Positions 2,679-44,513 of a DNA stretch of 64,000 nucleotides are shown in pieces. The position numbers and the translations under genes are program-made. Each line of letters starts with the position of its first letter. Positions within the stretch are counted from its first letter, which is position 1. The DNA is taken from assembly GCF_001005725.1 (NCBI RefSeq), contig NZ_LBIC01000010.1:124001-188000 (forward strand). Reading direction: 5' to 3'. The stretch is from Sphingobium chungbukense (GTDB lineage: Bacteria; Pseudomonadota; Alphaproteobacteria; Sphingomonadales; Sphingomonadaceae). The notes under the pieces were generated by a model that saw nothing but the letters and a program-made list of their open reading frames with translations, ran no database searches and was not told the origin of the DNA.

Positions 2679-3022
2679 CGAAGAGCTGCTGTGACGATGA
2701 CCTCGATCTTCCAGTCAGCGCGCGCAAGACACGCTTGCGCTGTCGCGCGTGCTGGGGTGGGAGCCTCGCCGATCCACGCCTCCCAGATCCGGTTCATCGT
2801 GTCATAATCCGCGATATCGGCGAGCCAGATCGTTGCCTGCAGAAGCCGCGAGCGATCCGTCCCTGCCTCGGCGAGCAGTTCATCGATCTGCGCAAGGACT
2901 GCCTGTGTCTGGGTGGCCACATCCTCTCCAGGAGCGCCTATCTGTCCTGCCAGATAGACGACACCGTTATGGATGACGGCTTGGCTCATGCGTCGCCCCG
3001 GCTTCAGGCGCCTGATGTCCAT
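2675..3022 (-). CDS. RidA family protein
   Basis: A 115-residue protein of the RidA/YjgF/UK114 family. These small trimeric proteins hydrolyse reactive enamine/imine intermediates released by PLP enzymes or act in amine catabolism. The start at 3022 (MDIRRLK) is chosen because an AGGAGA site lies just upstream; the open frame itself runs a further 34 codons upstream but without a better start. Family signatures seen are VYLAGQIG near the N-terminus and the closing IEVIVTAAL. It sits between the transporter and hydrolase genes and is near a PLP decarboxylase, a natural source of imines. That functional link is inference. Confidence 0.85.
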   Translation of the reverse strand: MDIRRLKPGRRMSQAVIHNGVVYLAGQIGAPGEDVATQTQAVLAQIDELLAEAGTDRSRLLQATIWLADIADYDTMNRIWEAWIGEAPTPARATAQACLARADWKIEVIVTAALR

Positions 3023-3050
3023 GGGATGGTCTCCTCGGTTGGTATGTTTG

Positions 3051-3842
3051 CTATGCGCCGGTGTCGCGGCGCTCCCCGGAAAGAAAGTGTCTGAGCAGTG
3101 CGTTGAATGCGGCTGGATCCTCAAGATAGGGGAGATGGCCGCAATCCGGCAGTCGTGCTATCGAGGAATTGGTGAGAAGCCGATGCATCTCGTCCACGCA
3201 ATAGGGAGGCACGAAGTCGTCCTTCTCGCCGCGCACGAGCAATACCGGACAACGGATCCCAGCCAGTTCCGGGCGCTGATCGTAGTCGATCAGCTCCTGG
3301 AACCGCGCGCGGATATGGTGCGGATCGATGCTGTCGAGCGATTTCAGGAATCCCCGGACGATCGTGGGATGTCCGCTCACACTCATCGCGGAGAGGAGCC
3401 GTTTCGCCCAGGCTTGTTCTCCGGCTGGCCCTATGAGCACATCGTACAGCGCGAGCCTGGCCTGCCGGTCGGCTGGCGTCAGATGGACAAACGCATTGAC
3501 GACGGCGATACGCTCAACGCGCTCCGGCTGGCGGGCGGCGAACATGAGGCCCGCTCTCGCGCCTTTTGAGAGACCGCATAGCGATAATTGCGTCACGCCG
3601 AGATGATCGCAAATGCCTTCGATCGATTCCCAATATCGCGTGAAAGGCACGTCACGGCCTTGTGAACGACCATGACCTGGCAGGTCCAGCGCAACGACCT
3701 GATGAGTCCGCGCGAAGGCCGCCCGTTGGAGCACCCAATTCTCGGCATTGCCGCCAAGTCCATGTAGGAACAGCAGTACCGGACCACTACCCTCGATCGT
3801 GTAGGAGAGCATGCGTCCGTCATGCGTAAAACTGTTGCGCAT
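3051..3842 (-). CDS. Alpha/beta-fold hydrolase
   Basis: A 263-residue serine hydrolase of the alpha/beta-fold superfamily, probably cytoplasmic. The oxyanion-hole motif FLHGLGG is near residue 28. The nucleophile elbow GLSKG carries the catalytic serine near residue 94. An acidic residue follows in the GEKDDFVPP segment, and the catalytic histidine lies in DCGHLPYLE near residue 238. This pattern resembles C-C bond hydrolases, lactonases and enol-lactone hydrolases (PcaD/MhpC-like). It lies between the RidA gene and the nitrilase gene on the same strand, so a ring-cleavage or ester product in the same pathway is plausible but not shown. Confidence 0.85.
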   Translation of the reverse strand: MRNSFTHDGRMLSYTIEGSGPVLLFLHGLGGNAENWVLQRAAFARTHQVVALDLPGHGRSQGRDVPFTRYWESIEGICDHLGVTQLSLCGLSKGARAGLMFAARQPERVERIAVVNAFVHLTPADRQARLALYDVLIGPAGEQAWAKRLLSAMSVSGHPTIVRGFLKSLDSIDPHHIRARFQELIDYDQRPELAGIRCPVLLVRGEKDDFVPPYCVDEMHRLLTNSSIARLPDCGHLPYLEDPAAFNALLRHFLSGERRDTGA

Positions 3843-3936
3843 GGTCAGCTCGCCTCCACGGCCATGCCTGTTGCGCTATCACGAGGCGCGCGCACCACGC
3901 CTGGGGGGACGGCATGGTGCGCGCGAACCCGCATGA

Positions 3937-4956
3937 TCAGGCGTCGGCCTGGGCGGGAGTGGCACTGGTTGCGTCTGCGGCGCCCAGCTTGAGCGCCTTG
4001 GTGATCTGCTCAGGCGTAAGATCCTGCGCGGATACGGCCGCCGAGGTCGCGGGATTGGTCATCAGCAGGCGCAGCAACTCGGGACGCGAGAAATGGCCTA
4101 CCGAGTCCATCACGCGCTTGCGATTGAGATTGAGGTCGAGGTCGAGGTCGGCGATCAGAATGCCCTCGCCGGACGTCAGCGGCGGTACGACATGCCGGCC
4201 CTCGGGATCGATGATCGCGGTGATGCTGCCACCGCGGATCATGTCCGCAGCGCCATGTTCGCCCGAAATCTTCACGATCTGCTCTTCGGTCAGCCACCCT
4301 GTCGCATTGACGACGAAGCATCCGCTCTCCAGTGCGTGGTTGCGGATCTGCACCTCGGTCTGGTCGGCGAAGGTCGGGCCGAACAGCGCGCCTGGGAACA
4401 TCGACACATGGATGTCCTCGTGCTGGGCCATCAGCGCATAGCGTGCGAGCGGATTGTAATGCTCCCAGCAGATCAGACCGCCGACCCGGCCGACCGCGGT
4501 GTCGACCACCTTCAACGTCGATCCGTCTCCCACACCCCAGATCATGCGCTCGTGATAGGCTGGCGAGAGTTTGCGATGCTTGAGCTGCAGGGTCCCATCC
4601 GCGTCGAAGATCAGCAGGCTGTTGTAGATCGTCCCATGATCGCGCTCGTTGATACCGATCGAGATAACGATGTGGTGACGCCGCGCCGCCGCTGAGAGGG
4701 CCTCGGTCACGGGGCCTGGTGCCACGACCGCGTTCTTGTAGAGGCGCATATGCTCATTGGCGATCAGGGCCGGGCCGTGGACGATCGAGAAATACGGGTA
4801 CCAGGGCAGGAAGGTCTCCGGGAACACGATGATCTCGGCTCCCTTCGAGGCGGCGTCCGTGATCGCTGCGAGCACGCGGTCGAGCGTGCCGGTCGCCGTG
4901 TCGAGATCGGGGGCGATCTGAACGGCTGCCGCGCGGACGGTACGAGAATCTGTCAT
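3937..4956 (-). CDS. Nitrilase (carbon-nitrogen hydrolase superfamily)
   Basis: A 339-residue nitrilase-type enzyme, which hydrolyses a nitrile to a carboxylic acid and ammonia. The catalytic triad is visible: Glu47 in [10 protein letters not shown], Lys129 in [12 protein letters not shown] and Cys163 in [13 protein letters not shown]. The [10 protein letters not shown] form is characteristic of true nitrilases and cyanide hydratases, not amidases. The start at 4956 has an AAGGAAAGG ribosome site. It is the first gene of the minus-strand cluster that continues through the hydrolase, RidA and transporter, and it is divergent from a LysR regulator. The substrate is unknown; an aromatic or arylaliphatic nitrile would fit the neighbouring BenE-like importer. 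Confidence 0.9.
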
Positions 4957-5189
4957 AGATGGGCCTTTCCTTGCGAACGGGGCGTGCGGGATCAGGTGAT
5001 CTCGCGAAACCTTCAGCCGATCTGGCGAGGGCAGTTAGTCGCGAAGGGACAGCATGCGATCATCTGCTCGCAGCCTGTCCTATCCCGCTATTCCCGCCGA
5101 TGTCCTCGGGTTCGCATTGGAATTTGATGTATTTCAGTGAAATCGAGAATATATGGTCTGATGAAATGATTCTTCCGGAATTCTGAATA
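4957..5189. promoter_or_regulatory. Divergent control region of nitrilase and LysR genes
   Basis: This 233-bp intergenic region separates divergent nitrilase and lysR genes and becomes AT-rich toward the lysR side. It contains ATTTCA-G-TGAAAT at 5131-5143, a dyad of the size LysR regulators use, and TTCCGGAA at about 5171-5178. LysR proteins usually bind such divergent regions to control both themselves and the neighbour. The exact operator is not established. Confidence 0.4.
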
Positions 5190-6122
5190 ATGGACACGCT
5201 GCGCGCCATGCAGGTCATTGTCGCCATCGCGGAACACGGGAGTTTCTCGGCGGCTGGTCGACAGCTCGGCCTATCAGCCCCAGCGATCACCAGGATCGTC
5301 TCTGAACTGGAGGCGCGGCTGAACGTCAAGCTTATCTCGCGCACGACCCGCAGCGTCCGTCTTACGGAGGCAGGAACCCGTTATGTCGAAGATTCTCGCC
5401 GGATCCTGGCGGCGGTTGATGATGCGGGTGACGCGGCACGAGGCATCCACGGTGAATTGCAGGGACGCGTCAATGTCACGGCATCGATCCTGTTCGGCCG
5501 GCTTTTCGTGTCGGACCTGCTGGTCGAATTCCTGCGCCGACATCCGGGGATGGAGATCGCGACGCTCTATGTCGATCGCGTCGTCCAGCTCGCCGAGGAG
5601 AACCAGGATATAGCTGTTCGTATCGGTCAGCTGGCGGACTCGAGCCTCCGCGCCATCCGTATCGGCACGATGCGTCGCATTGTCTGCGGAGCGCCGTCCT
5701 ATCTGGAGACGCGGGGTATTCCCCAGCGTCCTGAGGACCTCGACGATCATGAGACGATCGGAATCACGGCGCTTGGCGCCGGGCTGAACTGGCAGTTCGG
5801 GCGAGAGGGTGAAGCCTTCACCAGGCGCGTACATCCCCGGCTCTTCGTGAATTCGCACGAGAGCGGGATTGCCGCGGCCGAGGCTGGCTTCGGCTTGACG
5901 CAGGCCTGTTCCGATCAGGTTGCGCACCAGCTCCGCGCCGGCGCCCTGAGAGCCGTGCTGACGGAGTTCGAGCCTCCGGCCCTCCCGGTCCACGTCCTTC
6001 ACCGAGAAGGGGATCGCACCTCGGCGCGCGTCCGTGGCCTGGTGGATCACCTCGTCTCCGGGTTGCGGGTTCAGCTTGATGCGCTCTCGCGCCACGAGTC
6101 TTCCCTATCGGAAGCAGCCTAA
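5190..6122 (+). CDS. LysR-family transcriptional regulator
   Basis: A 310-residue LysR-type regulator. The N-terminal winged helix-turn-helix is clear: MDTLRAMQVIVAIAEHGSFS followed by the recognition-helix region around LGLSAPAITRIVSELE. The C-terminal half is the usual two-lobed effector domain. It is divergent from the nitrilase operon, the standard arrangement for a LysR activator of the adjacent catabolic genes. It belongs to the subgroup with long runs of conserved residues such as TRSVRLTEAGTRY, common in aromatic and oxidoreductase regulation. The inducer is unknown. Confidence 0.9.
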   Translation: MDTLRAMQVIVAIAEHGSFSAAGRQLGLSAPAITRIVSELEARLNVKLISRTTRSVRLTEAGTRYVEDSRRILAAVDDAGDAARGIHGELQGRVNVTASILFGRLFVSDLLVEFLRRHPGMEIATLYVDRVVQLAEENQDIAVRIGQLADSSLRAIRIGTMRRIVCGAPSYLETRGIPQRPEDLDDHETIGITALGAGLNWQFGREGEAFTRRVHPRLFVNSHESGIAAAEAGFGLTQACSDQVAHQLRAGALRAVLTEFEPPALPVHVLHREGDRTSARVRGLVDHLVSGLRVQLDALSRHESSLSEAA

Positions 6123-6134
6123 TGACCAAAGCCC

Positions 6135-6151
6135 TGCGCTCGTGGAGCGCA
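6135..6151. terminator. Short hairpin between convergent genes
   Basis: TGCGCTC and GAGCGCA pair around GTG immediately after the lysR stop and just before the stop of the convergent phosphatase gene. There is no following T-run, so this is a weak terminator candidate. Confidence 0.35.
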
Positions 6152-6156
6152 ATGGC

Positions 6157-6888
6157 TCAACCGGTCTGGATGACCCGCTGTGCCCCTCCCTCAAGAACAA
6201 GGCAGGTCAGGCGACCAGACTGATAAGCGCCGGTATCGATACCGATGCGGTTCGTTCGAAATACGGGCTCCTCGGTGATGACGTGTCCATGCACCACCTT
6301 GAAGCCCCAGTCTTCTTCGCTGCTCAGAAAAGGCTCCCGGATCCACATGAGATCTCGCTCCATCTGGTCGGAGACAGCCCTCTCGGGGTTCAATCCCGCG
6401 TGGACCAGGAAATAGCCTTGCCAGTGGATGCCAAGATCGAGGGAAGTGAGAAAATCACGATGGGTATCCGGCAGCACGCCGTCGAGGCGGTCACGCAGGT
6501 TGGTCCAGTCACTGTCGCCAGGCTCCACGGACACAGCAATGCCATAGCTCTCCAAAGCCTCCCGACCGCCAAACTTCAGCCAAGACGGACCATTCGTCGC
6601 TGGTGCATCGAGGAAATCCAGCATGCGATCTTCATGGTTGCCCTTGAGAAAGACGCGCTTCGCGCCATCGCGCGAAAGGATGCAAAGCCTGTCGATGACC
6701 TGGGCTGAGTGAGGCCCGCGATCAATATAGTCCCCAAGATAACAAATGAGGGGCTCGTCGGTACATGAAGCAGCGATATCGGCGGCGATCATGCCCTCGA
6801 TTGCATCAAGCAAATCAAGACGGCCATGAATGTCCCCGACCGCATAGACCCTCGACGCCTCCCATCGCGCCAGATGCATGACATCCAT
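6157..6888 (-). CDS. PPP-type metallophosphatase (serine/threonine phosphatase-like)
   Basis: A 243-residue metallophosphoesterase of the PPP/ApaH-like family with a dinuclear metal site. The ordered signatures are GDIHGR near residue 18, GDYIDRG near 51 and GNHE near 84, with later metal histidines in VHAG and HGH. Bacterial members act as protein phosphatases or on dinucleotides. The start at 6888 is chosen because GAGGTGA lies 5 bases upstream; the frame extends a further 28 codons to 6972. It stands alone, convergent with the lysR gene, and shows no clear functional tie to its neighbours. Confidence 0.85.
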   Translation of the reverse strand: MDVMHLARWEASRVYAVGDIHGRLDLLDAIEGMIAADIAASCTDEPLICYLGDYIDRGPHSAQVIDRLCILSRDGAKRVFLKGNHEDRMLDFLDAPATNGPSWLKFGGREALESYGIAVSVEPGDSDWTNLRDRLDGVLPDTHRDFLTSLDLGIHWQGYFLVHAGLNPERAVSDQMERDLMWIREPFLSSEEDWGFKVVHGHVITEEPVFRTNRIGIDTGAYQSGRLTCLVLEGGAQRVIQTG

Positions 6889-7021
6889 GTGCTCACCTCT
6901 TTCCTGCGCCGCCCTGTATCGCACCGCGGCGGGGACGCGAACGATTTTGATTGCGTTCGCGTCACTGCTCACGACCGGTCGCGTTTCTATCTAGTCAACA
7001 CGTTGCCGAACTAGGGGGCGG

Positions 7022-7483
7022 TCAGAATAGCCCATGACTCCCTGCGACGGCGCCAAGCACTGTGATGAGCGACAGCATCAGAAGGACGCGGTGCATTCCC
7101 TCCATCCGCGCAAAATCCGCCGGTTTGTCCGAGGTCGCCATGCGTCGATGCAGGAACAAGGGCTCGATGATGAACAGCATCGCGGCGAATACCGCCCAGA
7201 TACCGACCATGGCATGCATCCACCAGAAATGGGGATCGATAAACCGATCCCACAGTCCGGCGCGATAAACCATCCAGAAACCGCTGGCGCCAGCGAGGAG
7301 TACCCAGAAGCGCGCCTGTCCGGCGAAGCGGTCCTCGATGCGATGAAATGCAGCGAGCCTGTCCTTGGGCTCGTGATGCTCCCGGATGGACGGCATCACC
7401 ACGCAGGTCACGAACGCGACTCCGCCGATCCACATGAGGATCGCCACGACGTGCAGCGCGCGGGCAATGACGATGTCGTCCAT
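7022..7483 (-). CDS. CopD-like four-helix membrane protein, last gene of NO operon
   Basis: A 153-residue integral membrane protein with four predicted helices, resembling the CopD/DUF2269-type fold. Histidines near helix starts (ARALHVV, RFIDPHFWWMHA, EPLFLHRR) could bind haem or metal. It follows the flavohaemoglobin gene by 14 bases, with a GAGGCGAGG site before the ATG, so it is the last cistron of the globin-aox-DUF1971-hmp operon. Location makes a role in NO stress or haem/copper handling for respiration likely, but no function is established. Confidence 0.75.
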   Translation of the reverse strand: MDDIVIARALHVVAILMWIGGVAFVTCVVMPSIREHHEPKDRLAAFHRIEDRFAGQARFWVLLAGASGFWMVYRAGLWDRFIDPHFWWMHAMVGIWAVFAAMLFIIEPLFLHRRMATSDKPADFARMEGMHRVLLMLSLITVLGAVAGSHGLF

Positions 7484-7497
7484 CCTCGCCTCTGCGA

Positions 7498-8709
7498 TCA
7501 GGCCGCGAGCAGTTCGTCGGCCGGCCCGAAGAACTCATAGTGGATGCGATCGGAAGGCACGCCGGCAAGAGACAATGCCGACACCGCTGCCCGGAGGAAC
7601 GGTCGCGGTCCGCAGATATAATAATCGGCCTCCGTGACCGGCGTGTTGGCAATCAGCCAATCGTCAGTGATGAGCCCTGCCAGGTCATAGTCCCTGCCGG
7701 CCTGTTCGTCCGCCAGCGGCGTCTGATGGAAGTCGGTCACCTTGATCGAAGGCCTATGCTTGGCAAGCCCGCGCACATGATCGCGCATTGCATGGGTGTC
7801 GCGATCGTGGGTGCCATGGATATAATGGGCGGCGACCCCGGGGTGCCGCTCGGCAACCGTCTCTAGCATCGCGACCATCGGCGTAAGGCCGACGCCTCCC
7901 GACAGCAGCACGACCGGCCGCTGGGGAAGTTCGGCGAGGAAGAACTCGCCCGCCGGGGGCGAGACCTTCAGGATCGTGCCGGGCTTCGCATGGTCGTGCA
8001 GCCAGCCAGAGGCGAGGCCGTGTGGTTCGCGCTTGACGGAGATGCGATAGGTTTCGCCGTTCGCCGCATTCGAGATGGAATAGTTGCGCTTGGCGGGCGC
8101 GTGCCCCGGAATATCGAACCAGAAGGTCAGATACTGCCCCGGCTTGTGACGAATGACCGCGCCGCCGTCGACCGGGCGCAGGATGAACGAACTGATCACG
8201 CTGCTCTCTCTGATCACGTCCTCGACGCGGAAGTCGCGCCAGCCGTTCCAGCCCCCCTCGGCCGCCTTCTGTTCGTCATAGACGCGGGCTTCGCGTGCCA
8301 TCAGCACCTTGGCGAGGAACCAATAGGCCTCACCCCAGGCGCCGAGGATCTCGTCCGTCGCGGCATCGCCCAGCACCGCCTTGATCGCGCTGAGCAACGC
8401 TTCGCCAACATGGGGATAATGTTCGGGCAGGATCTGAAGCCCGACATGCTTCTGCGCGATCCGTTCGACGGCAGGTGCGAGCGCGGCGAGATTGTCGATA
8501 TTGCTGGCATAAGCGAGGATCGCCGCCGTCAGCGCCCGGGGCTGGGCACCGGCGGCGTCCTGATGCGACTGGTTGAACAGGTCGCGAATCTCCGGATTCT
8601 GGAACATGCGCGAATACATCTCGCGGACAATCTCGAGGCCGCTGGCTTCGAGCGCGGGAACGGTGGCTTTCACGAGCGCGATCGTGCGCTCGTTGATGGT
8701 CTGCGACAT
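7498..8709 (-). CDS. hmp: Flavohaemoglobin, nitric oxide dioxygenase
   Basis: A 403-residue flavohaemoglobin that converts NO and O2 to nitrate using NAD(P)H, in the cytoplasm. The N-terminal globin domain (about 1-140) has the proximal histidine region around QKHVGLQILPEHYPHVG. The FAD domain carries the RNYSIS motif, and the NAD domain carries SGGVGLTPM and CGPRPF. Length matches the family. An ATG lies at 8715 and another at 8709; the AGGAG site is spaced correctly only for the second, so 8709 is used. It is the fourth gene of an operon starting with a truncated globin and the alternative oxidase, under predicted NsrR control. All key motifs are intact. Confidence 0.95.
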   Translation of the reverse strand: MSQTINERTIALVKATVPALEASGLEIVREMYSRMFQNPEIRDLFNQSHQDAAGAQPRALTAAILAYASNIDNLAALAPAVERIAQKHVGLQILPEHYPHVGEALLSAIKAVLGDAATDEILGAWGEAYWFLAKVLMAREARVYDEQKAAEGGWNGWRDFRVEDVIRESSVISSFILRPVDGGAVIRHKPGQYLTFWFDIPGHAPAKRNYSISNAANGETYRISVKREPHGLASGWLHDHAKPGTILKVSPPAGEFFLAELPQRPVVLLSGGVGLTPMVAMLETVAERHPGVAAHYIHGTHDRDTHAMRDHVRGLAKHRPSIKVTDFHQTPLADEQAGRDYDLAGLITDDWLIANTPVTEADYYICGPRPFLRAAVSALSLAGVPSDRIHYEFFGPADELLAA

Positions 8710-8744
8710 CAACATCTCCTGTTACGAGGTTTGAATGGAAGAGG

Positions 8745-9017
8745 TCAGCCCGCGGGCGGCTGATCGTAGAAATCGACCCGCATCTTCATCGGCCCGAGCG
8801 GCGTCACGAAATGCGGCTGTTCGGGCAGCAGCAGGCCAGGTGCCTCAGGCGTCAGCTCGATCTCGGACGGCGGATTGAGATAGGTCAGCCGCACATGCCC
8901 CTCGATCACCCGAACCATGCCCCATACACCTGCCTTGGTGTTGTGCTGGCCGCGCAGAGCGGCCGGCAGCGTGTCCTCATCGAAGATCGGGGTGGATCGA
9001 TAGGGCTGGGTGGCCAT
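8745..9017 (-). CDS. DUF1971 small cupin-like protein
   Basis: A 90-residue protein of the DUF1971 type, the short cupin-like domain also found at the N-terminus of some TehB proteins. Recognisable features are the early AALRGQHNTKAGVWG segment and the closing FVTPLGPMKMRVDFYD. The start at 9017 (MATQPYRS) lies one base from the alternative oxidase stop, so the genes are tightly coupled. Proteins of this family often sit beside NO-related genes, but their biochemical role is unknown. The histidine and glutamate residues could bind a metal, which is speculation. Confidence 0.8.
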   Translation of the reverse strand: MATQPYRSTPIFDEDTLPAALRGQHNTKAGVWGMVRVIEGHVRLTYLNPPSEIELTPEAPGLLLPEQPHFVTPLGPMKMRVDFYDQPPAG

Positions 9018-9018
9018 G

Positions 9019-9705
9019 TCAGGCCGCCTGCCGGATATCGTCCGCGTGCGCGGGGTAGGGGGCGAGGGCGGTGACACTCTCGACGCCGGCCAGTTCGCTC
9101 GCGAAACCGTGGTTCACGTCGCGGTGATGCGCTTCGTCGGCGCGCACCACCAGCACCACGTCGCGCAGGGTGGCGTCGGCAGGCAGCTTCCAATAATGCC
9201 GCGCGATTGCCGGCGCCGGCACGTTCGGGCTCCGCCCCTCGTCGATTTCCTTGAGATAATGCGTGTAGCTGATCACCGCCTCTTCCTCGAAATAGCCGAC
9301 GATGCGGTGGGCCGTCCGAGGGCTGACCAGATAGAGCGCGAAGAAGGCGAGGTAGAACACCCACTGGACGCCGAGGACGACCAGCCGCTCGAACAGGGTG
9401 GGCTTGGCGATCTCGATAAAGGTCATGAGGTGCATACGCTCATTCTCCGCTTCCTCCATGAGGGTGCGGATCCAGCCCTTGTCGTCGCACATGCGGCGCA
9501 GGCACTTGAGATGGTTGATCGTGGCGCCAACCATGCCGGGCACCGCGGCGACCGTCTCCAGCACGATGGCGCGATGGCCATAGCGTTTGGCAAAGAAAGT
9601 GTCGGCGCACCAGCGCAACACCTTGGTGAAGCCCAGCGCGATATGATCGCGGAAATCTCGCGGTTTGTGATGCACGGTGAGATCGACGAGCGGGATGTCG
9701 GTCAT
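9019..9705 (-). CDS. aox: Alternative oxidase, NO- and cyanide-insensitive quinol oxidase
   Basis: A 228-residue di-iron alternative oxidase that passes electrons from ubiquinol to oxygen without pumping protons. The iron ligands are all present: Glu50 in LETVAAVPG, Glu89 and His92 in ENERMH, a glutamate near 141 in YFEEEA, and Glu191 with His194 in RADEAHH. Bacterial AOX lacks the plant regulatory N-terminus, as here. Known AOX enzymes resist NO and cyanide, and AOX of Vibrio fischeri is controlled by NsrR. The gene overlaps the upstream globin gene by 4 bases and is followed by DUF1971 and hmp. Its role is probably to keep respiration running when NO blocks haem-copper oxidases such as the Cyo enzyme encoded at 59.5-63.4 kb. 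Confidence 0.95.
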
Positions 9706-19233: not shown

Positions 19234-20433
19234 TCAACCACGAACCTTGGAAAGGACGCGCGCTGCGACGTTGCTGCGAACGGCGAGCTTTCGGCCGTAG
19301 CGCAACGCGGTGGCCGGGGAACTCCAGCGCAGCGCCTGGGCGATGCCGACACCATCTTCGCCTGCGGCAAACAGATCCTGCGTGAGGCCAACGCGTAGGG
19401 AATGAGTGGACAGGGCTTGGATCGCGTCCTGCAGCTTGCCCACCGGCAGCGTGACCAGTCCCTTTTCATAGGCAGCGAGTGCCACACGGCGGTAAATGCC
19501 GTTGACGCCCTGCCGGGTGAGCGGGGCTGCTCCGATGGAATAGGTCGTTCGCGCCAGAGCGGTCTCCGGCTCGGCTTGTCGCGCGCGCCGCCGATCGACA
19601 CCGACCCTGCGAAACAGCGGTCCTTCTTGGATGCCACTTGCATCATCCCAGGCATGAACCCGTCGCATGGTTTCGACCGAGAGCCATGCCCAGGCGCCTT
19701 CGCCATCCTGGTCAGTCTTGGAGAAGGGGATGAACAATGTCGCCGAGCCATCCTCCTGCGGATCGATGTGCAGACTTTCCACCACTGTGAGTTCGCTGAC
19801 GCGCAAGCCTGCGTCATAGCCCAGTGAGAGCAGGGCGGCGTCGCGTAGCCCCTGCAAATCGGCTCCACAGGCGTCGAGTAGCGCGGCAAGGGTGAAGCCC
19901 TTGGTGACGTGGGCATCCAATGCCTTGCCCAGTCGCAAAGGCGCGGCCTGGCGCTGTCTAACGCCCTGGCGCCGGCGAACGGCTTTGAGCGCCGCGCGCA
20001 CCATCGGCGCATCGGTAGGGGCGCTTTCGCTGGCCAACCCCATCATGCGGTGCACGGAGCCGAGGCTCGCGATGCGCCGCGCGAGAGTCGCGGGCTTCTT
20101 GCCCCTGGCGTCGAGGGCATTCACATAGCGCACCATATCTTCGGGATCGGCCGGCAGCGGTGTCCGGCTTTCCTCGCCGCACCAATCGCGCCAGCAATCA
20201 AGATCGGCGGCGATCGCCGCCTTCGTCGCGTCGGCCATAGCCGCCAGCGTTGTCTCGAGCCCCAGCTGGCTGATCGGAGGCAGATCGATTGGCACGATGC
20301 CGCCGATCGTTCGCAAAAGCCGCATGTCGATGGTTTCGACGTCCGTGCTACGCGGGCGCTTCGGCAACGCCGCCTCCGCGGTCTTGACGACGATGATTTC
20401 CGCATTGGAACCGTTGGTGGGTTTCTCGGACAT
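19234..20433 (-). CDS. Cre-like tyrosine site-specific recombinase
   Basis: A 399-residue tyrosine recombinase of the Cre type. The catalytic residues are Arg211 (GLRVSEL), Glu214, Lys239, His344 and Arg347 (THSLRVG), Trp370 and Tyr379 (LRYGRKL). Spacings Arg-Glu-Lys-His-Arg-Trp-Tyr are those of P1 Cre (R173, E176, K201, H289, R292, W315, Y324), including the tryptophan in place of the usual histidine; only the Lys-to-His interval is longer. The N-terminal core-binding domain has the Cre-like DPEDMVRYVNALDARG. Cre resolves plasmid dimers and cyclises phage DNA. A lox-like palindrome lies 133 bases upstream. No neighbouring transposon or phage genes were recognised. Confidence 0.9.
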   Translation of the reverse strand: MSEKPTNGSNAEIIVVKTAEAALPKRPRSTDVETIDMRLLRTIGGIVPIDLPPISQLGLETTLAAMADATKAAIAADLDCWRDWCGEESRTPLPADPEDMVRYVNALDARGKKPATLARRIASLGSVHRMMGLASESAPTDAPMVRAALKAVRRRQGVRQRQAAPLRLGKALDAHVTKGFTLAALLDACGADLQGLRDAALLSLGYDAGLRVSELTVVESLHIDPQEDGSATLFIPFSKTDQDGEGAWAWLSVETMRRVHAWDDASGIQEGPLFRRVGVDRRRARQAEPETALARTTYSIGAAPLTRQGVNGIYRRVALAAYEKGLVTLPVGKLQDAIQALSTHSLRVGLTQDLFAAGEDGVGIAQALRWSSPATALRYGRKLAVRSNVAARVLSKVRG

Positions 20434-20482
20434 CGCTTGTTACGTGCCCGCGCGCGGGGTATTGCAACTATGCGGCACAAAG

Positions 20483-20502
20483 CGCGGCACATCTGTGCCG
20501 CG
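20483..20502. promoter_or_regulatory. 20-bp palindrome upstream of recombinase gene
   Basis: CGCGGCACA and TGTGCCGCG flank TC, giving a perfect 9-2-9 palindrome 50 bases upstream of the recombinase start. A partial copy, GCGGCACA, lies at 20472-20479. This is a plausible operator for the recombinase gene or an accessory binding site. Confidence 0.4.
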
Positions 20503-20565
20503 TGCTTCCCACGGCTTCTTCGCGATCGGCATTTTGCCCCTTCCCTGCTGATATCACGCTTCTAT

Positions 20566-20594
20566 ACTTACCATAACCTCTCATTATGGTAAGT
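20566..20594. other. Lox-like 11-7-11 palindrome, candidate recombinase target
   Basis: The arms ACTTACCATAA and TTATGGTAAGT are perfect inverted repeats of 11 bp around the asymmetric 7-bp spacer CCTCTCA. This matches the architecture of Cre-type sites (two AT-rich recombinase-binding arms around a 6-8 bp asymmetric spacer; loxP is 13-8-13). It is 133 bases upstream of the Cre-like gene. Recombination at it is not shown; a transcription operator is the alternative. Confidence 0.45.
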
Positions 20595-20632
20595 GAGAAA
20601 TCGCGCGGGGAGGGGCTTCAAATAGGTAATCT

Positions 20633-20848
20633 GACCGCACGCAGCGTTGGTCCGATAGCCTAAGCGCTTTCGGCCTGTTGGCCGCTTTGCTCGGCCAGAC
20701 ACTCACATGGAGGGCGTTATCCTGGGTCGCCCTGTCCGTGCCGCTCGCCGTCATCCTTTGCTACTGGCCACTGCGACGGCCGTTCGATCGAAAGCCACCC
20801 TATGACGGTACATCCCGTCCGCGCGCTAGTCGGCCTCGCCGCGCTTGA
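20633..20848 (+). pseudogene. Possible remnant encoding the end of a membrane protein
   Basis: A 71-codon open stretch without a usable start, coding a hydrophobic helix (LSAFGLLAALLGQTLTWRALSW) followed by a basic tail. It begins after an in-frame TAA 40 bases beyond the lox-like palindrome and runs into the 3' end of the convergent transporter gene. It may be the truncated end of a gene broken by recombination, or chance. I do not recognise a family. Confidence 0.25.
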
Positions 20849-30442: not shown

Positions 30443-33253
30443 CTATTCACGAAGCTTAGGATCCTGGAAGAAGCCGCGATCATGATCGCGGTTCACTTCC
30501 TGTTCCAGATCGACAGAACCTTGGACTCGCTGGCCACGCATAATCTGCCCCGCCGTACGGTCGTTGCTCAACTCTGCCTTACCCGCCTCGATGATCGCAG
30601 CGGCGCCTACATCTCCACCGTCGGTGGGACCAGCGGGCAGGTGCCCGGGCCGATGCGGCCGGTAGGACGCCCTTACATCCGCAGCACTCGCGACACTCGG
30701 CTGGCCCACATCAACAAGGTCCGGATCGCGCAACCGGCCAGCAATCTCCGCGCGGATGCCGTCCTGCTTATCGTGCATCCAGCGCGTGATCATCTCCTGG
30801 CGCACGAGCCGCTGCTGATCGGAAAGATCGGTCGCCCAAAGCTCGGGTGCATCGAGCCCCGGATTCTCGACCTGCTGGCGGCGATACCATTGAGCAAGAT
30901 CCTGGCTCAGATTCTCACTGAGTTGCATGCCGTGCGTCTCGGCATAGCTGGCGTCGCGCGACAACTGCTGCGAGAGCTCTTCGAGGCGGCGCGCGGTTTC
31001 CGAATAGGACTTCGCGAGCGCCAGCGAATCCTCCGTGCTTGCCGATGAGGAGGACGTAGCCGATGCCCGGCTGAAGCCGCCGCTGCGCGAATAGGTCCCA
31101 TCGGACATCGACGCACCGGTGCCGTTCGCATGTTCATCCCGCACACCGCTCGACGACGTGTTGGCGCTGTCGCTGCCGCGGGTGTCGTCGGTCGTATGAC
31201 GCAGTGAATCTGTCTGGCTGCCCGACTTCGAAATGCTACCCCCAATGCTGGGCGGACGGCCAAGACCTCCTCCACGACCAGAATTCGCGCCCATCCCCTG
31301 ACGTCCGCCCGCCCCGGCCGCGATAGTCCCCGAAATTTGATCGGTGGTCTGCGCCTGGCGGTCGTGGCTTTGTCCAATGCGCTGGCCCTGTGATATCGTG
31401 TCGCGCTCTTCCAGGCCCTCCGAGCTACTGCCGGTCCTCCTGTCGAACTGCTCGACCGACGTGTTCGCCTGTCGGCCGCTGCTTGAATCCCAACCGGACG
31501 ACCGCTCCGTCGAAGTGCCGAAGGCACTGCGGTTGGCATGGGTCGCGGTCAGCACTTCGGCAGCAGCATTCTCATAGGCCTGCGCCTGGCGATGCGCTTC
31601 GCTCGCCATCTCGCGCCATTCCGCCACCGAGCCGGTGGTCATCGTCGGCGTAAAGCCTAGTCGGGAAATCGCACCCGACGTATCGAACACTTCCTGACCG
31701 TTGCCGAAGCCCGTCACGAGCGCGCCATTGTCCTGCCGCCAACCGAAACTCGATGCCCCGCCCATATAGCTGGGCGCAGTGGTCCACTGATCGGCCTGGC
31801 GCATGTTCGATGTCGAATTTGCCCAGCTTACGTTTCCATAGGAATAGTTTCCCGTGGTCTGCTCGAGCGCAGCCGCTTCCGCGGCGTTTTGCGCGGGCGC
31901 CAGCATCGACATAGACTGGCCAGCAATCGACATCGCGCCCCGCGCAAGGCCGGCGGCAAGAAACGGCACGCTCATCAGCATGAAGCCGGCGATCGTCGCC
32001 GTCTCGCTATTGACGGCACCTATCCCTGCATAGCTTCCGAGCGAAACCCCGCCCTCCGCCACGCTGGCGGCCGCCGACGTCGCGCGCGTCATGCAGATCA
32101 TGTGAAGGATCACATAAAGCGGACCCCATGCGGCGAGATAAAAGAAGCCGGTCGCATAGCCTTTGAGCGAGCTGATGCCGGTCTGAGGCATAAGAAACAG
32201 TGGGAAAATGATCGGAAACATCGCGAAGAAGACCACGGTCAGAACGATGTTCAGGATCGGCACCCAAGCCATCGCCTGCTGGGCGATCGAATTATAGGTG
32301 TTGCGCGCCTGGATGTCGGCGCGGGTCTGCGCGAACGTGTCGATCGCCGCGGCTCCGGTTCCGCCCGACATCGAGTTGCGCGCCTGCATGAAAGCATTGA
32401 TCGCCGTGTTCTGGCGCATCACTTCGGCGAAGCTGCCGCTTGAACCCGTAAACGCCGCGCTGACGATCGGCACGTCATGCTTGAGCTTATCTGCCGCAAG
32501 CGCGTTGCTGAGCTTGGGATAAGCCTCCTTGCCCCAAAGTGGGGTGTTGGCCTCGATCATCGGTCCCCATTGGGCATCGAGCGTCTGGTAGGCTTGCCGA
32601 CAGGTGACTATGAAGCTGTTGACCGTCCCGTCGCCTTGACGCTCGAGCCACTGTTGGGATCGCGCCTCCGAGCCAGGCCCGACCGCAGCCCAGAGATCGG
32701 TGGCCTTAGCCAGATCGGTGAGCGACTTCTGATAGAGCATCACGTCGCCGAACAGGCAGTTCTTGAAATGGTTTTCCAGGTTAGTGGAAAACTCGGCATC
32801 GCGAATGACGAAATTGCGGGTCGCGTCGAACAGCCGCGCGCCATAGATCATCCCGTTGCTCGAATAGTTGAGTTCGCTCGGCATGACGAAAACCGTCTCA
32901 GCCGTTCGCGTCAGCCAATCGCCAACCTGCGTCGTAAAGCTCGCAAGGACGCCCAGGCCGATCGGGACGTTATCGACCGTTGCCGGCGCGAGGCTTGGAT
33001 TGATCCGGTCCGTGACCTTTATGCTCACTGTCGGAACCATGAGGCAGAGGTAGACTGCGGTCGCCTGCAGGAACCAGTTCAGCCACACCTTGTAGTTGAG
33101 CGTGAAGGCCACCACGAGCAGCGAATAGATCAGACCCATCACCATGACGACGCGGATGAGCGAACGATAGCCCCCGCCCCCCGACCAGGCCGCCACCGCA
33201 TTGAAGATATTTACGAGATATTCCCCGCCTCCGACCGTGAAAACCTCAAGCAT
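30443..33253 (-). CDS. traG: Conjugative transfer protein TraG
   Basis: A 936-residue inner-membrane/periplasmic protein, near the length of F TraG (about 938). The N-terminal third has membrane segments (LIRVVMVMGLIYSLLVVAFTL and others up to residue 450) and is involved in pilus assembly. The C-terminal, low-complexity Ser/Gly-rich and periplasmic part governs mating-pair stabilisation and entry exclusion. Start at 33253 has GGGAGCAGG upstream. It is the last gene of the tra operon. The segment around residue 770 (YAETHG) is shared with the secreted protein at 29667-30104. Confidence 0.9.
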   Translation of the reverse strand: MLEVFTVGGGEYLVNIFNAVAAWSGGGGYRSLIRVVMVMGLIYSLLVVAFTLNYKVWLNWFLQATAVYLCLMVPTVSIKVTDRINPSLAPATVDNVPIGLGVLASFTTQVGDWLTRTAETVFVMPSELNYSSNGMIYGARLFDATRNFVIRDAEFSTNLENHFKNCLFGDVMLYQKSLTDLAKATDLWAAVGPGSEARSQQWLERQGDGTVNSFIVTCRQAYQTLDAQWGPMIEANTPLWGKEAYPKLSNALAADKLKHDVPIVSAAFTGSSGSFAEVMRQNTAINAFMQARNSMSGGTGAAAIDTFAQTRADIQARNTYNSIAQQAMAWVPILNIVLTVVFFAMFPIIFPLFLMPQTGISSLKGYATGFFYLAAWGPLYVILHMICMTRATSAAASVAEGGVSLGSYAGIGAVNSETATIAGFMLMSVPFLAAGLARGAMSIAGQSMSMLAPAQNAAEAAALEQTTGNYSYGNVSWANSTSNMRQADQWTTAPSYMGGASSFGWRQDNGALVTGFGNGQEVFDTSGAISRLGFTPTMTTGSVAEWREMASEAHRQAQAYENAAAEVLTATHANRSAFGTSTERSSGWDSSSGRQANTSVEQFDRRTGSSSEGLEERDTISQGQRIGQSHDRQAQTTDQISGTIAAGAGGRQGMGANSGRGGGLGRPPSIGGSISKSGSQTDSLRHTTDDTRGSDSANTSSSGVRDEHANGTGASMSDGTYSRSGGFSRASATSSSSASTEDSLALAKSYSETARRLEELSQQLSRDASYAETHGMQLSENLSQDLAQWYRRQQVENPGLDAPELWATDLSDQQRLVRQEMITRWMHDKQDGIRAEIAGRLRDPDLVDVGQPSVASAADVRASYRPHRPGHLPAGPTDGGDVGAAAIIEAGKAELSNDRTAGQIMRGQRVQGSVDLEQEVNRDHDRGFFQDPKLRE

Positions 33254-33271
33254 CGGCCTGCTCCCCCGCGC

Positions 33272-34729
33272 TTAATTGAGCCCCTGAGCATTGAGGCCGC
33301 GCGAAAAATTGAGCGCGGCAGCCATCCCCGGCGTCATCGAATTCTGGAGCGTCGATTCCAGCATGACGCTGCGGTTGATGATCTGCATCGTTACCTGCAG
33401 CTTGTTGGAGAGCTTCACGTCGCGTTGGGCAAACTTCTGCCGCGTGGCCGCGATCTGCTGCTTCCACTGCGCGGCTGTCGCCTGATCGAACGTCTGATAG
33501 TGCGTTTGCGCCTGTTCTACCCGGTCGAGCATGTTGTCGAGCATCGCCGCCAGCAGGTCGACCGCCACGATCTCGGAGAGTGTCTCGATCTCACCGTCCG
33601 TCAGCGCGTAATGTGCATAAGCCTGGACCGCGAGGATCTTGTAGAGCGGCACCGTCGCAAGGTTCAAAAGCTGCTTTTCGGCGGCATTGAGCGGCGTATC
33701 GGAACGGATCTTGTCGCTCATCGACCTGATCATCGCTGCGATCCGCGGCCGCAGCGCCGAGGATGCCGGCACGCTCAAGGTCTGCTCTCCGACATCGTAG
33801 CAATTCTCGTCATTGCATTTCAGGATTTTGACCGGCGGTGCGTCGGCGGTTCCGTCGAGCAACGCCGTCACCACCGCTTCCTCAGCGGGACCGAACATCG
33901 CGACCTTGCCGCCGACGCTTGGATCGCTGGAGGGCGTGGTCACGACCGTGCCCACCAGCGTCATGATATATTCCGAGAAGGACTGGTCGAATGCTCCGAA
34001 CTTGGCGGACTTCTTCAGCGCCTCCCAGGTGTAATTGTGCGGCTCACCGACGAGCTGGTCCTTCATGCTGGCATCGGTGTTCCCGGCAATCGTGCTGTCA
34101 CGCCGATTGCCATTGTTGCAGCCTTGCCGAGATGCCGCCCAGTCGGAAAAGATGCCCTGGCTGTTGCCGACCGCTTCGCAGATCGTGGAGCGCGTCGTCT
34201 CCATCTGCGGCCAAATCCCCCCGACGAGAGCCTGCGCGGTCTCACAGCTCGAGATGTTCATCTGGTTCAGGAGCTGCGCCTTCTGGCTGAACTCGTCCAT
34301 CACCTTCCCGATTTCGGGCGAAACGGAATCGATCGCGAGCTTGAACGCGAAACCCAGGGCATTGTTGGCCGTCGCCTTCAGCATCGCCACGATCTCGGAG
34401 GCGTTGATGAAGGAAAAACTGCCGGAGAACAGGTCTATGCCGCCGCAGCCAGCCCGAGCGCTGGGAAGCTGCAGATTGAACGGTGAAACGCTCTTCTGCG
34501 GGAAGCGCGTCCAGACATTGCCCAGCGAGTAATAGCCCGCAGACTGGCCCTGAAAGGCCGTCGGGCCGGTCACGTTGGCCGCCGATCCGGCGTCGTTGAA
34601 GAAGCCGTTCATCTCCGATGCGACATCCGCGCGCGCAACACCCACCACCGCGAAATGGGAGGCAGCCACCAGCGCCATGCCCGCGCCAAACTTACGGCGC
34701 AGCGCGCCCATCCTTCCAAGCCGTGCCAT
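33272..34729 (-). CDS. traH: Conjugative transfer protein TraH
   Basis: A 485-residue periplasmic protein involved in F-pilus assembly and associated with the outer membrane complex. It has a signal peptide (ALVAASHFAVVGVARA) and the family hallmark AGCGGIDLFSGSFSF near residue 93. It overlaps traF (TGATG at 34729) and lies 18 bases before traG. The length is slightly more than that of F TraH (about 458). Confidence 0.95.
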   Translation of the reverse strand: MARLGRMGALRRKFGAGMALVAASHFAVVGVARADVASEMNGFFNDAGSAANVTGPTAFQGQSAGYYSLGNVWTRFPQKSVSPFNLQLPSARAGCGGIDLFSGSFSFINASEIVAMLKATANNALGFAFKLAIDSVSPEIGKVMDEFSQKAQLLNQMNISSCETAQALVGGIWPQMETTRSTICEAVGNSQGIFSDWAASRQGCNNGNRRDSTIAGNTDASMKDQLVGEPHNYTWEALKKSAKFGAFDQSFSEYIMTLVGTVVTTPSSDPSVGGKVAMFGPAEEAVVTALLDGTADAPPVKILKCNDENCYDVGEQTLSVPASSALRPRIAAMIRSMSDKIRSDTPLNAAEKQLLNLATVPLYKILAVQAYAHYALTDGEIETLSEIVAVDLLAAMLDNMLDRVEQAQTHYQTFDQATAAQWKQQIAATRQKFAQRDVKLSNKLQVTMQIINRSVMLESTLQNSMTPGMAAALNFSRGLNAQGLN

Positions 34730-35556
34730 CAGTAATCGCTCCCGACCTTGGTGTTGGTCAGCATGAAAATGCGGTCCATGATTTCGTCGGCGCTGAGCAC
34801 GCCGTAGCCGACCGGAATCGTCCGCTTGGTCTGGGTGTCGAACAACACCAGCGCCGGCGTCTCGTTACCAGGGACCCCCATCCGCGCCCGTTGGCCGGAG
34901 TCGACGACGTAATTCGGGAAATCCCTGCTGGGGCCACCATCCATAGAGACGGCCATCACCGTCATCCTATGGCTATCCGTTACCGAGCGCAGGATTGGGG
35001 CGAACACTTCGCATGCACCGCAGCTCTGCGCATAGAAATAGAAAAGGCCGTAGCGCTGGCCGAGGTTCGTCAGAACCGCGTCCCGGTCGGCCTGCCGATT
35101 GTCGAGCCATAGGCGTTTGCCGACTGTCGAAACGGGGCGCTGCAGCGTGTAGTCCAGATCCGGGTTCTGCCAGAGGGCGCGCTGCCAGGTATCCGAGAAG
35201 GTCGACGCCCGATCGAGTTGCTCGCGCTGGAAGCGGATGTAGTTGATGACGTTCGTCTCAGTCGGATCGAGGATGGCGAGTGCCTTCAGTTCATCGAGCT
35301 GCCTGGTGATCGCAGCGATCCGATCGGTGGCCCTCTCCTCCTTCGGGCGCTCCGGTGGCGAGGGTGCCTCCTCCGGCTTGGGTGTCGCGCAATAGAACCA
35401 TTGTCCGAGCCTGCGCTCGCCACAATAGAATGGGTCGGACCTGTCTTGCTCGATTGCATCGTTCCGCGCCGACGAGGCATCCTGCGCCATAAGCGGCGGC
35501 ACCCACACAGCCCCCGCCAAGGCGACGGCCAGGATCGAAACCTTACCGAAGATCGG
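34729..35556 (-). CDS. traF: Conjugative transfer protein TraF (thioredoxin-like)
   Basis: A 275-residue periplasmic thioredoxin-fold protein required for F-pilus assembly. A signal peptide ends near PLMAQD. The CxxC pair is in QSCGACEVFAP near residue 170, so it may be redox-active, unlike F TraF, which lacks the motif. Start 35556 is supported by GGGGAGG upstream; the frame starts 9 codons earlier. It precedes traH with overlapping stop and start. Confidence 0.9.
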   Translation of the reverse strand, partial: PIFGKVSILAVALAGAVWVPPLMAQDASSARNDAIEQDRSDPFYCGERRLGQWFYCATPKPEEAPSPPERPKEERATDRIAAITRQLDELKALAILDPTETNVINYIRFQREQLDRASTFSDTWQRALWQNPDLDYTLQRPVSTVGKRLWLDNRQADRDAVLTNLGQRYGLFYFYAQSCGACEVFAPILRSVTDSHRMTVMAVSMDGGPSRDFPNYVVDSGQRARMGVPGNETPALVLFDTQTKRTIPVGYGVLSADEIMDRIFMLTNTKVGSDY

Positions 35557-35782
35557 CATGGTGCGCCCTCCCCACTCGATCATTGGAAACCTGCGCGGAA
35601 GAGTCGGGACGCAAGCGGTCGTTGCCGACGTCCCAACCCGTAAAATGGAGGCAGCAGTCCGCCACCGTGTCTGGATGCCGCGAAACGCACGATGCCGGCG
35701 CCGGTCGCGGAGGCAGGCTCACGACGGGCTGCGCGAGAAATGCCGTCACGATGGCGGGCAACTCAAATATCGGCATCGGCAT
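35543..35782 (-). CDS. Possible small gene between traN and traF
   Basis: A 79-codon frame whose ATG at 35782 has GGGAG 8 bases upstream. It overlaps the start of traF by 14 bases, like other genes of this operon. The product begins with a hydrophobic stretch (PIFELPAIVTAFLAQPVVSL) and contains several cysteines. There is no recognised family; it may be spurious. Confidence 0.35.
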   Translation of the reverse strand: MPMPIFELPAIVTAFLAQPVVSLPPRPAPASCVSRHPDTVADCCLHFTGWDVGNDRLRPDSSAQVSNDRVGRAHHADLR

Positions 35783-35847
35783 GCTCTTTCTCCCTGATTT
35801 CGGGCCGCGTCGCGGCCTCCCCCAGCGCGAGATTCATCAGGCCCACG

Positions 35848-37683
35848 TCACTTTCCATGGAGATCGTAGTAGGATTGAATCTTGCCTTGGATGTCGGTCA
35901 TGGTCTGGACTTCGTCAGGCAGTTTCGCTGCGTCCATGAAGTCCGAGTAGACTTCGGTGAAATCCATCACCGACAAATCGAGCCGCGCGAACTCGTCGAT
36001 GGTGAACCCTTGACACTGTTCCTTTTTCGCACTTCCCCAACTCTTGCCGAGCTGGGGGCGGCCTTGTTCCTGAAGGACACGCGAGAGCTTGCTTTCGAAG
36101 CAGCAATAAGCAGTGCGCTTGGTTGAGCAGATGCCCAGGAAGCTCGACGAGCAATAGCTGCCAAGATTGTGGCAGAGACCCATGCGGTCCTTGATGTCCA
36201 GCTTCATCTCGTCCTGGCTGCACGCGAAGAGGACGAGGAAAGGCGTGGCGAAGGCAGCGATGGCCGCCGGGCCACCCGCCAGCGCCGCCGCGCCGGCTGC
36301 GATCGGAACGGCACCCGAGACCTTGCCCGCACAGCAATTGATGAGCCCAAAAACGGGTTTATGGCAGGTTTCGCGGTCGCCCGAGAAAACGCGATAGTTG
36401 GTTTCGTCGAACTCCTTCCCGGCCTGATCCAGCGCATGCAGACCCACCAGCGCGTCCCGGAACTCGGTTGACGCTTCACGAACGATCGGTTCGCAGTCGC
36501 CGTTCACGCAATAGACATCGTCGCCGCAAATATATTGGTTGTCGGTGGGCACATCACTCGCCGGCGTCGGACAGCGATAGACCTTCTCCGTTACCTTGCA
36601 TGCCCCATCCTGGGGATCGTCCAGACAATCATCACGAACATAGGTGCAGGAAGCGTTGGCCTCGAGATCGCCGCAATCGTTACCCGCGGTCATGACCTTG
36701 CATGAGAAATCCCGCTTCCACGCCCAGCAGGGCTGAGTCACGGGCACCCCATCGATGATCCGCGTCTCCAAACCTTCCGTGCAAACTTCGCCCGCCGGAT
36801 CAGCCGAACACATCGTGTCGCCAGCGAGACCGGTGCAGCCATCGACCCGCTTCACAGTGACCTCAGTTTGGGTCGTCCTGGCGTGCCATCCCTGGCCGGT
36901 GATCGGGCTCGGCAGCCACGAAAGGTCGGTCAGGTTCTTTGAGCAGACATACTCGGTTGCGTTGTAATCGTCACAGAACTTGTTCGTGTCGACGCCGTAA
37001 ATCCGGTGCGCAGCGCATGCCTGCATGACGACGCCTGTAGGCTTGCAGGTGCCATCAGCAAGATGCGGCACCATCTGGTCATAACGCGCAAAGGGGGTAC
37101 CATAAGCTCCAGTCGGGACGACAAAGAACTTGTAGGCGTCGGTGGTCGTGGTCTCTGGAACCATCGTGATCGAGCAGGACCGCGGCTGATCTTCGAGTTT
37201 AGTGCCCTGGTTGCAGGTCGCCTCGTAGTAGCCCATGCCGCTCGACCCTGGGGGCAAGGGCGTGCAGGAGCCCGCGCCACTCGAAATCTCCTCGCCCTCA
37301 AGATAGGTCGTCGGATCGTTCTCGACCGTCGTGGCCCGATTGGTTGTTGCCAAAATGTCGGCGTTGCTGAAGGTCGGTCGGACGTGATCAGCGTCGGTCG
37401 ATACCCGATAGCTTTCATTCCCCGACTTCGTCGCCTGCGCGTCGGAAACCAGCCTGTCTGGATCATCGAAATAGGTGCTCTGCGGCTGGCTAGTCCCCGA
37501 GTAGCCCGGCACGGCCGCCGCCTGCGCATCGCTCGACGGCACCAGCGAGGAGTCGTTCCGCTTCTCCTGCGCCATCGTCTTGCCTTCTTCCCGGGCCTGG
37601 TCGATGGTCATGGTCTGCGCGCCGACAGGCTCGGTGACGAGCAGCAGCGCACAGAGCGCACCCATGATGCGGCGCAGGATCAT
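35848..37683 (-). CDS. traN: Mating-pair stabilisation protein TraN
   Basis: A 611-residue outer-membrane adhesin-type protein, the same size as F TraN (about 602). It has a signal peptide (LCALLLVTEPVGAQT) and is exceptionally cysteine-rich through the middle (for example CTEGLETRII..CWAWKRDFSC..CGDLEANASC and CGDDVYC). TraN recognises outer-membrane partners of the recipient. It overlaps trbC by 4 bases. Confidence 0.95.
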   Translation of the reverse strand: MILRRIMGALCALLLVTEPVGAQTMTIDQAREEGKTMAQEKRNDSSLVPSSDAQAAAVPGYSGTSQPQSTYFDDPDRLVSDAQATKSGNESYRVSTDADHVRPTFSNADILATTNRATTVENDPTTYLEGEEISSGAGSCTPLPPGSSGMGYYEATCNQGTKLEDQPRSCSITMVPETTTTDAYKFFVVPTGAYGTPFARYDQMVPHLADGTCKPTGVVMQACAAHRIYGVDTNKFCDDYNATEYVCSKNLTDLSWLPSPITGQGWHARTTQTEVTVKRVDGCTGLAGDTMCSADPAGEVCTEGLETRIIDGVPVTQPCWAWKRDFSCKVMTAGNDCGDLEANASCTYVRDDCLDDPQDGACKVTEKVYRCPTPASDVPTDNQYICGDDVYCVNGDCEPIVREASTEFRDALVGLHALDQAGKEFDETNYRVFSGDRETCHKPVFGLINCCAGKVSGAVPIAAGAAALAGGPAAIAAFATPFLVLFACSQDEMKLDIKDRMGLCHNLGSYCSSSFLGICSTKRTAYCCFESKLSRVLQEQGRPQLGKSWGSAKKEQCQGFTIDEFARLDLSVMDFTEVYSDFMDAAKLPDEVQTMTDIQGKIQSYYDLHGK

Positions 37684-38423: not shown

Positions 38424-38433
38424 CGTGGATCTC

Positions 38434-39453: not shown

Positions 39454-39719
39454 TCGATTTCCACCAAGGCTTCGAGGAATGCGCGATCCGCGCGCTGTTT
39501 CCTCATGAGATAGAACACCGTCCAGAAGACGCAGGCGAAGACGAGGACCGCCATCGCGATCGAGGCCCTTCTGCCCACCGCCCGGTGGATCGGTCCAAAC
39601 AATCCGGCGCCGGTCGCGGTAGTCAGGCATAGGCCCTGCCAGATGAAACGCATCCGTCTCAATTTCGGCGTTTCGGGCGCGGCCATGGGCGTGCGCAGCA
39701 GGTCGAGCCATAACGGCAT
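39450..39719 (-). CDS. Small tra-operon membrane protein between traW and traU
   Basis: An 89-residue protein with two helices (FIWQGLCLTTATGAGLFGPI and ASIAMAVLVFACVFWTVFYLM), of unknown family. It is translationally coupled at both ends: its start overlaps the traW stop and its stop overlaps the traU start. Conservation of this overlap suggests a real gene in pilus biogenesis, but no function is assigned. Confidence 0.7.
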   Translation of the reverse strand: MPLWLDLLRTPMAAPETPKLRRMRFIWQGLCLTTATGAGLFGPIHRAVGRRASIAMAVLVFACVFWTVFYLMRKQRADRAFLEALVEIE

Positions 39720-41909: not shown

Positions 41910-41914
41910 CCGCG

Positions 41915-44512: not shown

Positions 44513-44513
44513 C

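Follow-up and report, generated by a model that had tools for sequence, protein, structure and literature searches.

The recombinase gene and its palindrome

The window, a stretch of 64,000 nucleotides from Sphingobium chungbukense (contig NZ_LBIC01000010.1, positions 124,001 to 188,000), contains an open reading frame with an ATG start at 19234–20433 on the minus strand, whose 399-residue product is by its sequence a Cre-type tyrosine recombinase, and upstream of it, at 20566–20594, a perfect palindrome that is a putative core recombination site. The core consists of two 11-bp inverted repeats, ACTTACCATAA and TTATGGTAAGT, on either side of an asymmetric 7-bp spacer at 20577–20583, which is CCTCTCA on the plus strand and TGAGAGG in the direction of the recombinase. 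The palindrome is as described in the original prediction, but 132 bases and not 133 separate it from the start codon. It is assigned as a core site by its uniqueness, its conservation and a crossover in a relative, and the spacer is presumed to be the region of strand exchange as it varies among orthologues with identical arms.

Recomputation gave the seven catalytic residues R211, E214, K239, H344, R347, W370 and Y379 at the spacings of Cre (R-E 3, R-K 28, H-R 3, R-W 23 and W-Y 9), both as predicted earlier, and a phmmer alignment places the set opposite the Cre residues. The R-E-K-H-R-W-Y set at this spacing is a defining feature of the Cre-type tyrosine site-specific recombinases, and all seven residues are invariant in two alignments of 19 (A1) and 35 (A2) sequences. 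Most members of the family have a histidine at the position where the Cre-like recombinase has its tryptophan. Cre is the nearest solved sequence and also the nearest fold, with an identity of about 24% in the fold alignment, and the protein scores well below the curated NCBIfam cut-offs of the XerD (39.3 against 329.6 bits) and XerC (34.3 against 335.15 bits) equivalogs.

One perfect 11-N7-11 repeat is observed in the window against 0.029 expected from the base composition, and the search for further copies that was recommended with the prediction found the core to be single in the 5.5-Mb genome at up to three mismatches; a chance palindrome was considered and rejected. The likeness to the architecture of lox, rox and vox sites that had been claimed does not hold in detail, the lox template being 13-8-13 in the available text of PMC4957104 and the core here 11-7-11. 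The 13-bp arms and 8-bp spacer of Cre-type sites are absent, but because the palindrome is present and conserved, a Cre/lox-like mode of action with a variant site is indicated. Neither does the 7-bp spacer fit the 11-6-11 layout of dif. A short plus-strand frame from 20586 has, when read by eye, its ATG start within the palindrome.

Conservation, surroundings and arm types of the site

A protein scan of the genome collection gave 21 loci, from which an Achromobacter match with 40% identity over 96 residues was dropped, and the remaining 20 orthologues, with 81–91% identity, all have the identical perfect arms. The prediction had named a conserved protein without a conserved palindrome as the result that would speak against it, and the outcome is favourable. 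The core is located 128–133 bp upstream of the recombinase in eight of the 20 and 1052–1063 bp upstream in the other 12, and the spacers are TGGGAGA (13), TCAAACA (4), TTGATCG (2) and TCGGACA (1). A scan for the site only, in 397 genomes of the family, matched eight genomes with at most one mismatch and one genome with the reversed control. All eight, two of which (the window's genome and that corresponding to pSWIT01) were known beforehand, have the core on the contig of a recombinase homologue, 71–1064 bp from the match and with 62–100% identity, and all belong to the at least 22 genomes with a protein match at E ≤1e-60; the remaining genomes in that group, at least 14, lack the site and have homologues of 43–58% identity (the protein counts are lower bounds, with at most four candidates scored per genome). 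At least two contigs (L112 and L116, the same as G303 and G149) are common to both scans. From a list of 14 plasmid records with 62% identity or above, eight were fetched, and seven of these have the site, with one or two annotated genes between it and the recombinase in pSWIT01 and pSH2. The loci are related, and the counts should therefore not be read as independent events.

The surroundings of the core are conserved in 27 loci of the clade (20 contigs, six plasmids and the window). A C-rich box, CCCCTCCCCGCGCGA on the minus strand (20601–20615), flanks the core and begins 20–23 bp before it in 21 of the 27. A G-rich box, GGGAAGGGG on the same strand (20537–20545), lies 20 bp beyond the core in the window and 18–20 bp after it in 26 loci. 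The dyad CGCGGCACA-TC-TGTGCCGCG at 20483–20502, present as described earlier, is a putative accessory element or operator; its pattern GCGGCACA-n-TGTGCCGC is found 63–65 bp after the core in 23 loci, and so is a third half-site of the same type (TTGTGCCGC on the minus strand, 20472–20480) at 84–86 bp from the core. The dyad pattern was not found in L108, L109, W06 and W07. The distance between dyad and core is still 63–65 bp in each of the 14 loci with the recombinase some 1.05 kb from the core (12 orthologues, pSH2 and pSWIT01, representing about two sequence types and their hybrid), which makes a composite site likely and gives no support to the dyad as a competing target. Accessory elements within such a composite site are suggested by the G-rich boxes and by the constant position of the GTGCCGC dyad. 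The dyad could be such an element or a matter of history.

More distant homologues have other arms, mostly of the shape ...ATAA-7-TTAT...: ACTATCGATAA in L003, L027, L032 and L055, ACTAATGATAA in L025 and imperfectly in L029, ATTTGCTATAA in L034 and L035, TTTCCATAA/TTATGGTAAAA in L030, L031 and L033, and TTTCCCATAA in L026. On a tree of 38 distinct proteins (45 before identical ones were collapsed, with L007–L009 left out) the arm types sort by clade, and no site was found for six members. A 7-spaced repeat with at least 10 of 11 pairs is present in 11 of 37 distinct upstream regions, compared with an average of 0.17 over 100 resampled sets, and one with at least 9 of 11 pairs in 18, against a mean of 2.88 and a largest value of 9. 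At the stricter threshold the spacers 6 and 8 gave one region each, and spacers 5 and 9 gave 10 and 7 because the same nested repeats are read. The clade-B arms were found at four sites in three of the 397 genomes, every one beside a clade-B homologue; these sites were already known, so the news is that the sample holds no stray site. A match with three mismatches in pSH2 adjoins a recombinase of clade D that shares 84% identity with the L030 protein. Three recombinase/site pairs are present in the window's genome, on contigs C10, C11 and C9; there are two arm types among them, that of C10 differing from that of C11 and C9 (two matches at C9:27530 and C9:159054 are outside this pair analysis). 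We propose that the arms determine which recombinase recognises the putative site. The claim of a Cre/lox-type pair is supported in that all 12 sites from the scans with two arm types adjoin a recombinase of the matching clade, and in a crossover at the palindrome.

Some observations concern other repeats and clades. L028 has a 7-bp-spaced palindrome of another sequence, and the distant clade E (L036 and L061–L065) has GATAA-6-TTATC near the gene, with a 6-bp spacer and inverted in L065, which is either the site of the clade-E recombinase or dif-like; a second motif, GGAAACCAA...TTGGTTTC, stands some 50 bp farther upstream in L061, L063 and L064, with a variant in L062. Plasmids pSAMIE_2, pBAR3 and pBAR4 share a near-identical block (6.9 kb with 99.9% identity between L102 and L103, both 2436–9314, and its right part only in L027) that contains tniA-tniB-tniQ-like genes, a further open reading frame, a clade-B lox-like site and a clade-B Cre-like recombinase between TGT...ACA ends. 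It seems to be a Tn5053/Tn402-like transposon with a Cre-like recombinase in place of the serine resolvase of other such elements; its end repeats show only TGT...GACAAA similarity and no target duplication was seen by eye. In three of four clade-B modules examined (not L103) the flank resembles a clade-E recombinase locus: the left flank of L102 has 100% identity, over 535 bp, with the upstream region in L064, the right flank of L102 codes for the C-terminal portion of a clade-E recombinase, and L027 and L104 show a weaker resemblance, as if the element hunted recombinase loci. Another perfect palindrome of the window, TGACACTTTACC-4-GGTAAAGTGTCA at 54602–54629, was found in this exact form in no other fetched locus outside contig C10, and looser ACTTTACC repeats with other spacings are present in the plasmid loci L012 and L016.

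A natural crossover and the proposed role of the module

Sphingomonas sp. ID1715 (G149) is identical to pSWIT01 over 6153 bp to the left of the core, and from the core start rightwards it matches Sphingobium sp. C100 (G303) identically over 6670 bp, with only 78% identity to pSWIT01 on the right side and 85% to C100 on the left. The switch between the parents is confined to 31 bp shared by both, the palindrome with a single flanking base at either end, and longer shared runs, of 45 bp at -209 and 38 bp at -866, were not used. Comparison over 1500–2500 bp shows the left type in nine other records and the right type in four, and ID1715 is therefore the likely hybrid. ID1715 and both parental groups all have the spacer TGGGAGA. 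The junction suggests that the pair really recombines DNA, though for one event homologous recombination at this spot may also be the cause. Plasmid pMEA01 carries two homologues (85% and 74% identity) with the core spacers TTGATCG and TGGGAGA, as would follow if cores with different spacers did not recombine, and we propose that the spacer allele decides which sites, and with them which plasmids, can recombine. A mosaic at L031, with a left flank 92% identical to L030 and a right flank 97.5% identical to L033, was rejected as a site-specific event, because its spacers differ and its break lies some 20 bp off the site.

The window lies entirely on contig C10 (224,465 bp). This contig has genes for a ParB-HTH protein, for a TrwB/TraD coupling protein and for a relaxase that shares 77% identity with the TrwC-domain relaxase of pSCLO_3. 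On the minus strand, 30443–47669 is occupied by F-type conjugation genes (TraG_N, TraH, TraF, TraN, TrbC, TraC, DsbC-like and TrbI). An end overlap of the contig was looked for and not found, so that circularity is not established. The closure of C10 aside, the module is plasmid-borne with one core per monomer, as in plasmid multimer resolution systems. A mobF gene is located near four of eight clade-A plasmid loci, and in eight plasmids fetched for other clades the relative is 1–7 kb away from par or rep genes.

We consider, with a probability of about 0.85, that the gene and the palindrome together make up a Cre/lox-like module for site-specific recombination, borne by the plasmid and serving mainly in multimer resolution, with spacer alleles selecting the partners. 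A pair of recombinase monomers would occupy the 11-bp arms of a 29-bp core, two occupied cores would come together in a synapse, and Y379 with R211, K239, H344, R347 and W370 would then exchange strands across the spacer. Since the spacer is asymmetric, recombination between the directly repeated cores of a plasmid dimer would yield monomers, which might stabilise the large conjugative plasmid. If the arms set the recombinase and the spacer allele sets the partner sites, plasmids with the same arms and the same spacer could also fuse or swap flanks.

Several observations weigh against this or limit the evidence for it. There is a single clean crossover, that of ID1715 against two parental groups, among the 27 clade loci. 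Three further perfect repeats with arms of 11 bp or more are located near 1394, 54602 and 57959 in the window, with spacers of 3/5, 4/6 and 10 (spacers of 3–11 were examined), and the palindrome alone is therefore modest evidence. The structure model is only fair, with a mean pLDDT of 70.7, and residues 344–368, which hold H344 and R347, are below 50. The ParB gene of C10 is about 118 kb from the recombinase, and no par or rep genes are found within 6 kb at the eight clade-A plasmid loci. One plasmid with a 62.5% homologue (W08/L017) has no such site at up to three mismatches, and no site was found for five more members of the tree (L005, L006, L053, L056 and L060), of which L006 and L056 are cut by contig ends. 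Finally, the dyad of the near loci could be an operator.

An operator role has also been considered for the palindrome itself, in autoregulation by the recombinase or another regulator and with no crossover site; the position 128–133 bp upstream of the start in the window and in eight of the 20 orthologues would be plausible for this. The core is however perfect also where it is about 1.05 kb away (12 of the 20, pSH2 and pSWIT01), its spacer is asymmetric and occurs as different alleles, a crossover between plasmids is located at the palindrome, and a scan of 20380–20720 for σ70 promoters, the only type covered, found nothing, which makes this reading very improbable. Slightly more remote still is a plasmid dif-type site for the host XerC/XerD with the neighbouring recombinase a coincidence. 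The 11-bp arms and inner ATAA/TTAT are similar to dif (11-6-11 in the available text of PMC8371274), and the window's genome has five dif-like sites GATAA-6-TTATGTTAA elsewhere (C13:20171, C17:555, C18:60733, C3:140586 and C8:57556), in a search that gave 13 matches at up to three mismatches against six for the reversed control. Five are more than one chromosome needs. The core spacer is 7 and not 6, however, the arms are symmetric and differ by recombinase clade within one genome (C10 against C11 and C9), and the 12 sites from the site-only scans all adjoin a family recombinase.

A module mainly for integration or fusion, between plasmids or between plasmid and chromosome and with resolution secondary, is unlikely though better placed than the two above. 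It would account for the natural inter-plasmid crossover, for pMEA01 with its two recombinase genes and two unlike-spacer cores, as in a stable fusion, and for a homologue with its site in a 3.4-Mb contig (G017). Against it, seven plasmids each carry only one core of any one arm type, the second and weaker match in pSH2 belongs to clade D and adjoins a clade-D recombinase of its own, and several relatives are located 1–7 kb from partition or replication genes. Beyond the resolution module preferred here, we tentatively put forward, at rather less than even odds, that the conjugative plasmids of sphingomonads carry a radiating Cre-type family with composite 7-bp-spacer sites (core, flanking boxes, and dyad and third half-site at fixed spacing), where arms would denote recombinase identity and spacers fusion compatibility, so that one module would resolve the dimers of its own plasmid and permit modular exchange only where two plasmids have their spacer in common.

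Comparison with known recombination systems

No report of these sites is among the matches listed from the open-access literature, subscription literature being outside the search, and the open-access papers listed as containing an arm string deal by title with other subjects. Jelicic et al. 2023 reportedly describe a discovery of Cre-type recombinases and may have tested a relative. The matched pairs of recombinase and site, of which this genome has three, with two arm types, and of which relatives show further arm types, record a joint change of recombinase specificity and DNA site; some should be mutually orthogonal, and such natural pairs would be useful as tools for genome engineering. 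By means of the spacer alleles and the hybrid ID1715 it can be tested whether sites of this kind direct the modular evolution of sphingomonad plasmids.

P1 Cre/loxP has the same family, fold and seven catalytic residues with their spacing, and a palindromic site with an asymmetric spacer near the gene, but the layout is 13-8-13 instead of 11-7-11, the arms differ from those of the core, and the extra conserved boxes and the dyad at fixed distance are features of the system described here. Vika/vox and Dre/rox likewise consist of a recombinase and one nearby intergenic palindrome recognised by comparative search, with other arms. TnpI/IRS of Tn4430 combines a tyrosine recombinase with a core and accessory repeats at fixed distance; no Tn3 transposase is found beside the recombinase of the window, where the accessory role is a presumed one. 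The pairs Nigri/nox and Panto/pox, as far as described in the available text of PMC4957104, were also found as a recombinase with one nearby intergenic palindrome by comparative search, but with a 13-8-13 template and other arms, and such a template would miss Cre-type sites with a 7-bp spacer. XerCD/dif and the plasmid Xer sites share the 11-bp arms, the inner ATAA...TTAT and the role in dimer resolution, which is putative here, and differ in that the system of the window has one plasmid-coded recombinase, symmetric arms that follow the clade and a 7-bp spacer. The overlap of lambda integrase is 7 bp and the dif arms are 11 bp, according to the available text of PMC8371274, and since the core has the spacer length of the former and the arm length of the latter, it lies between the known types of site.
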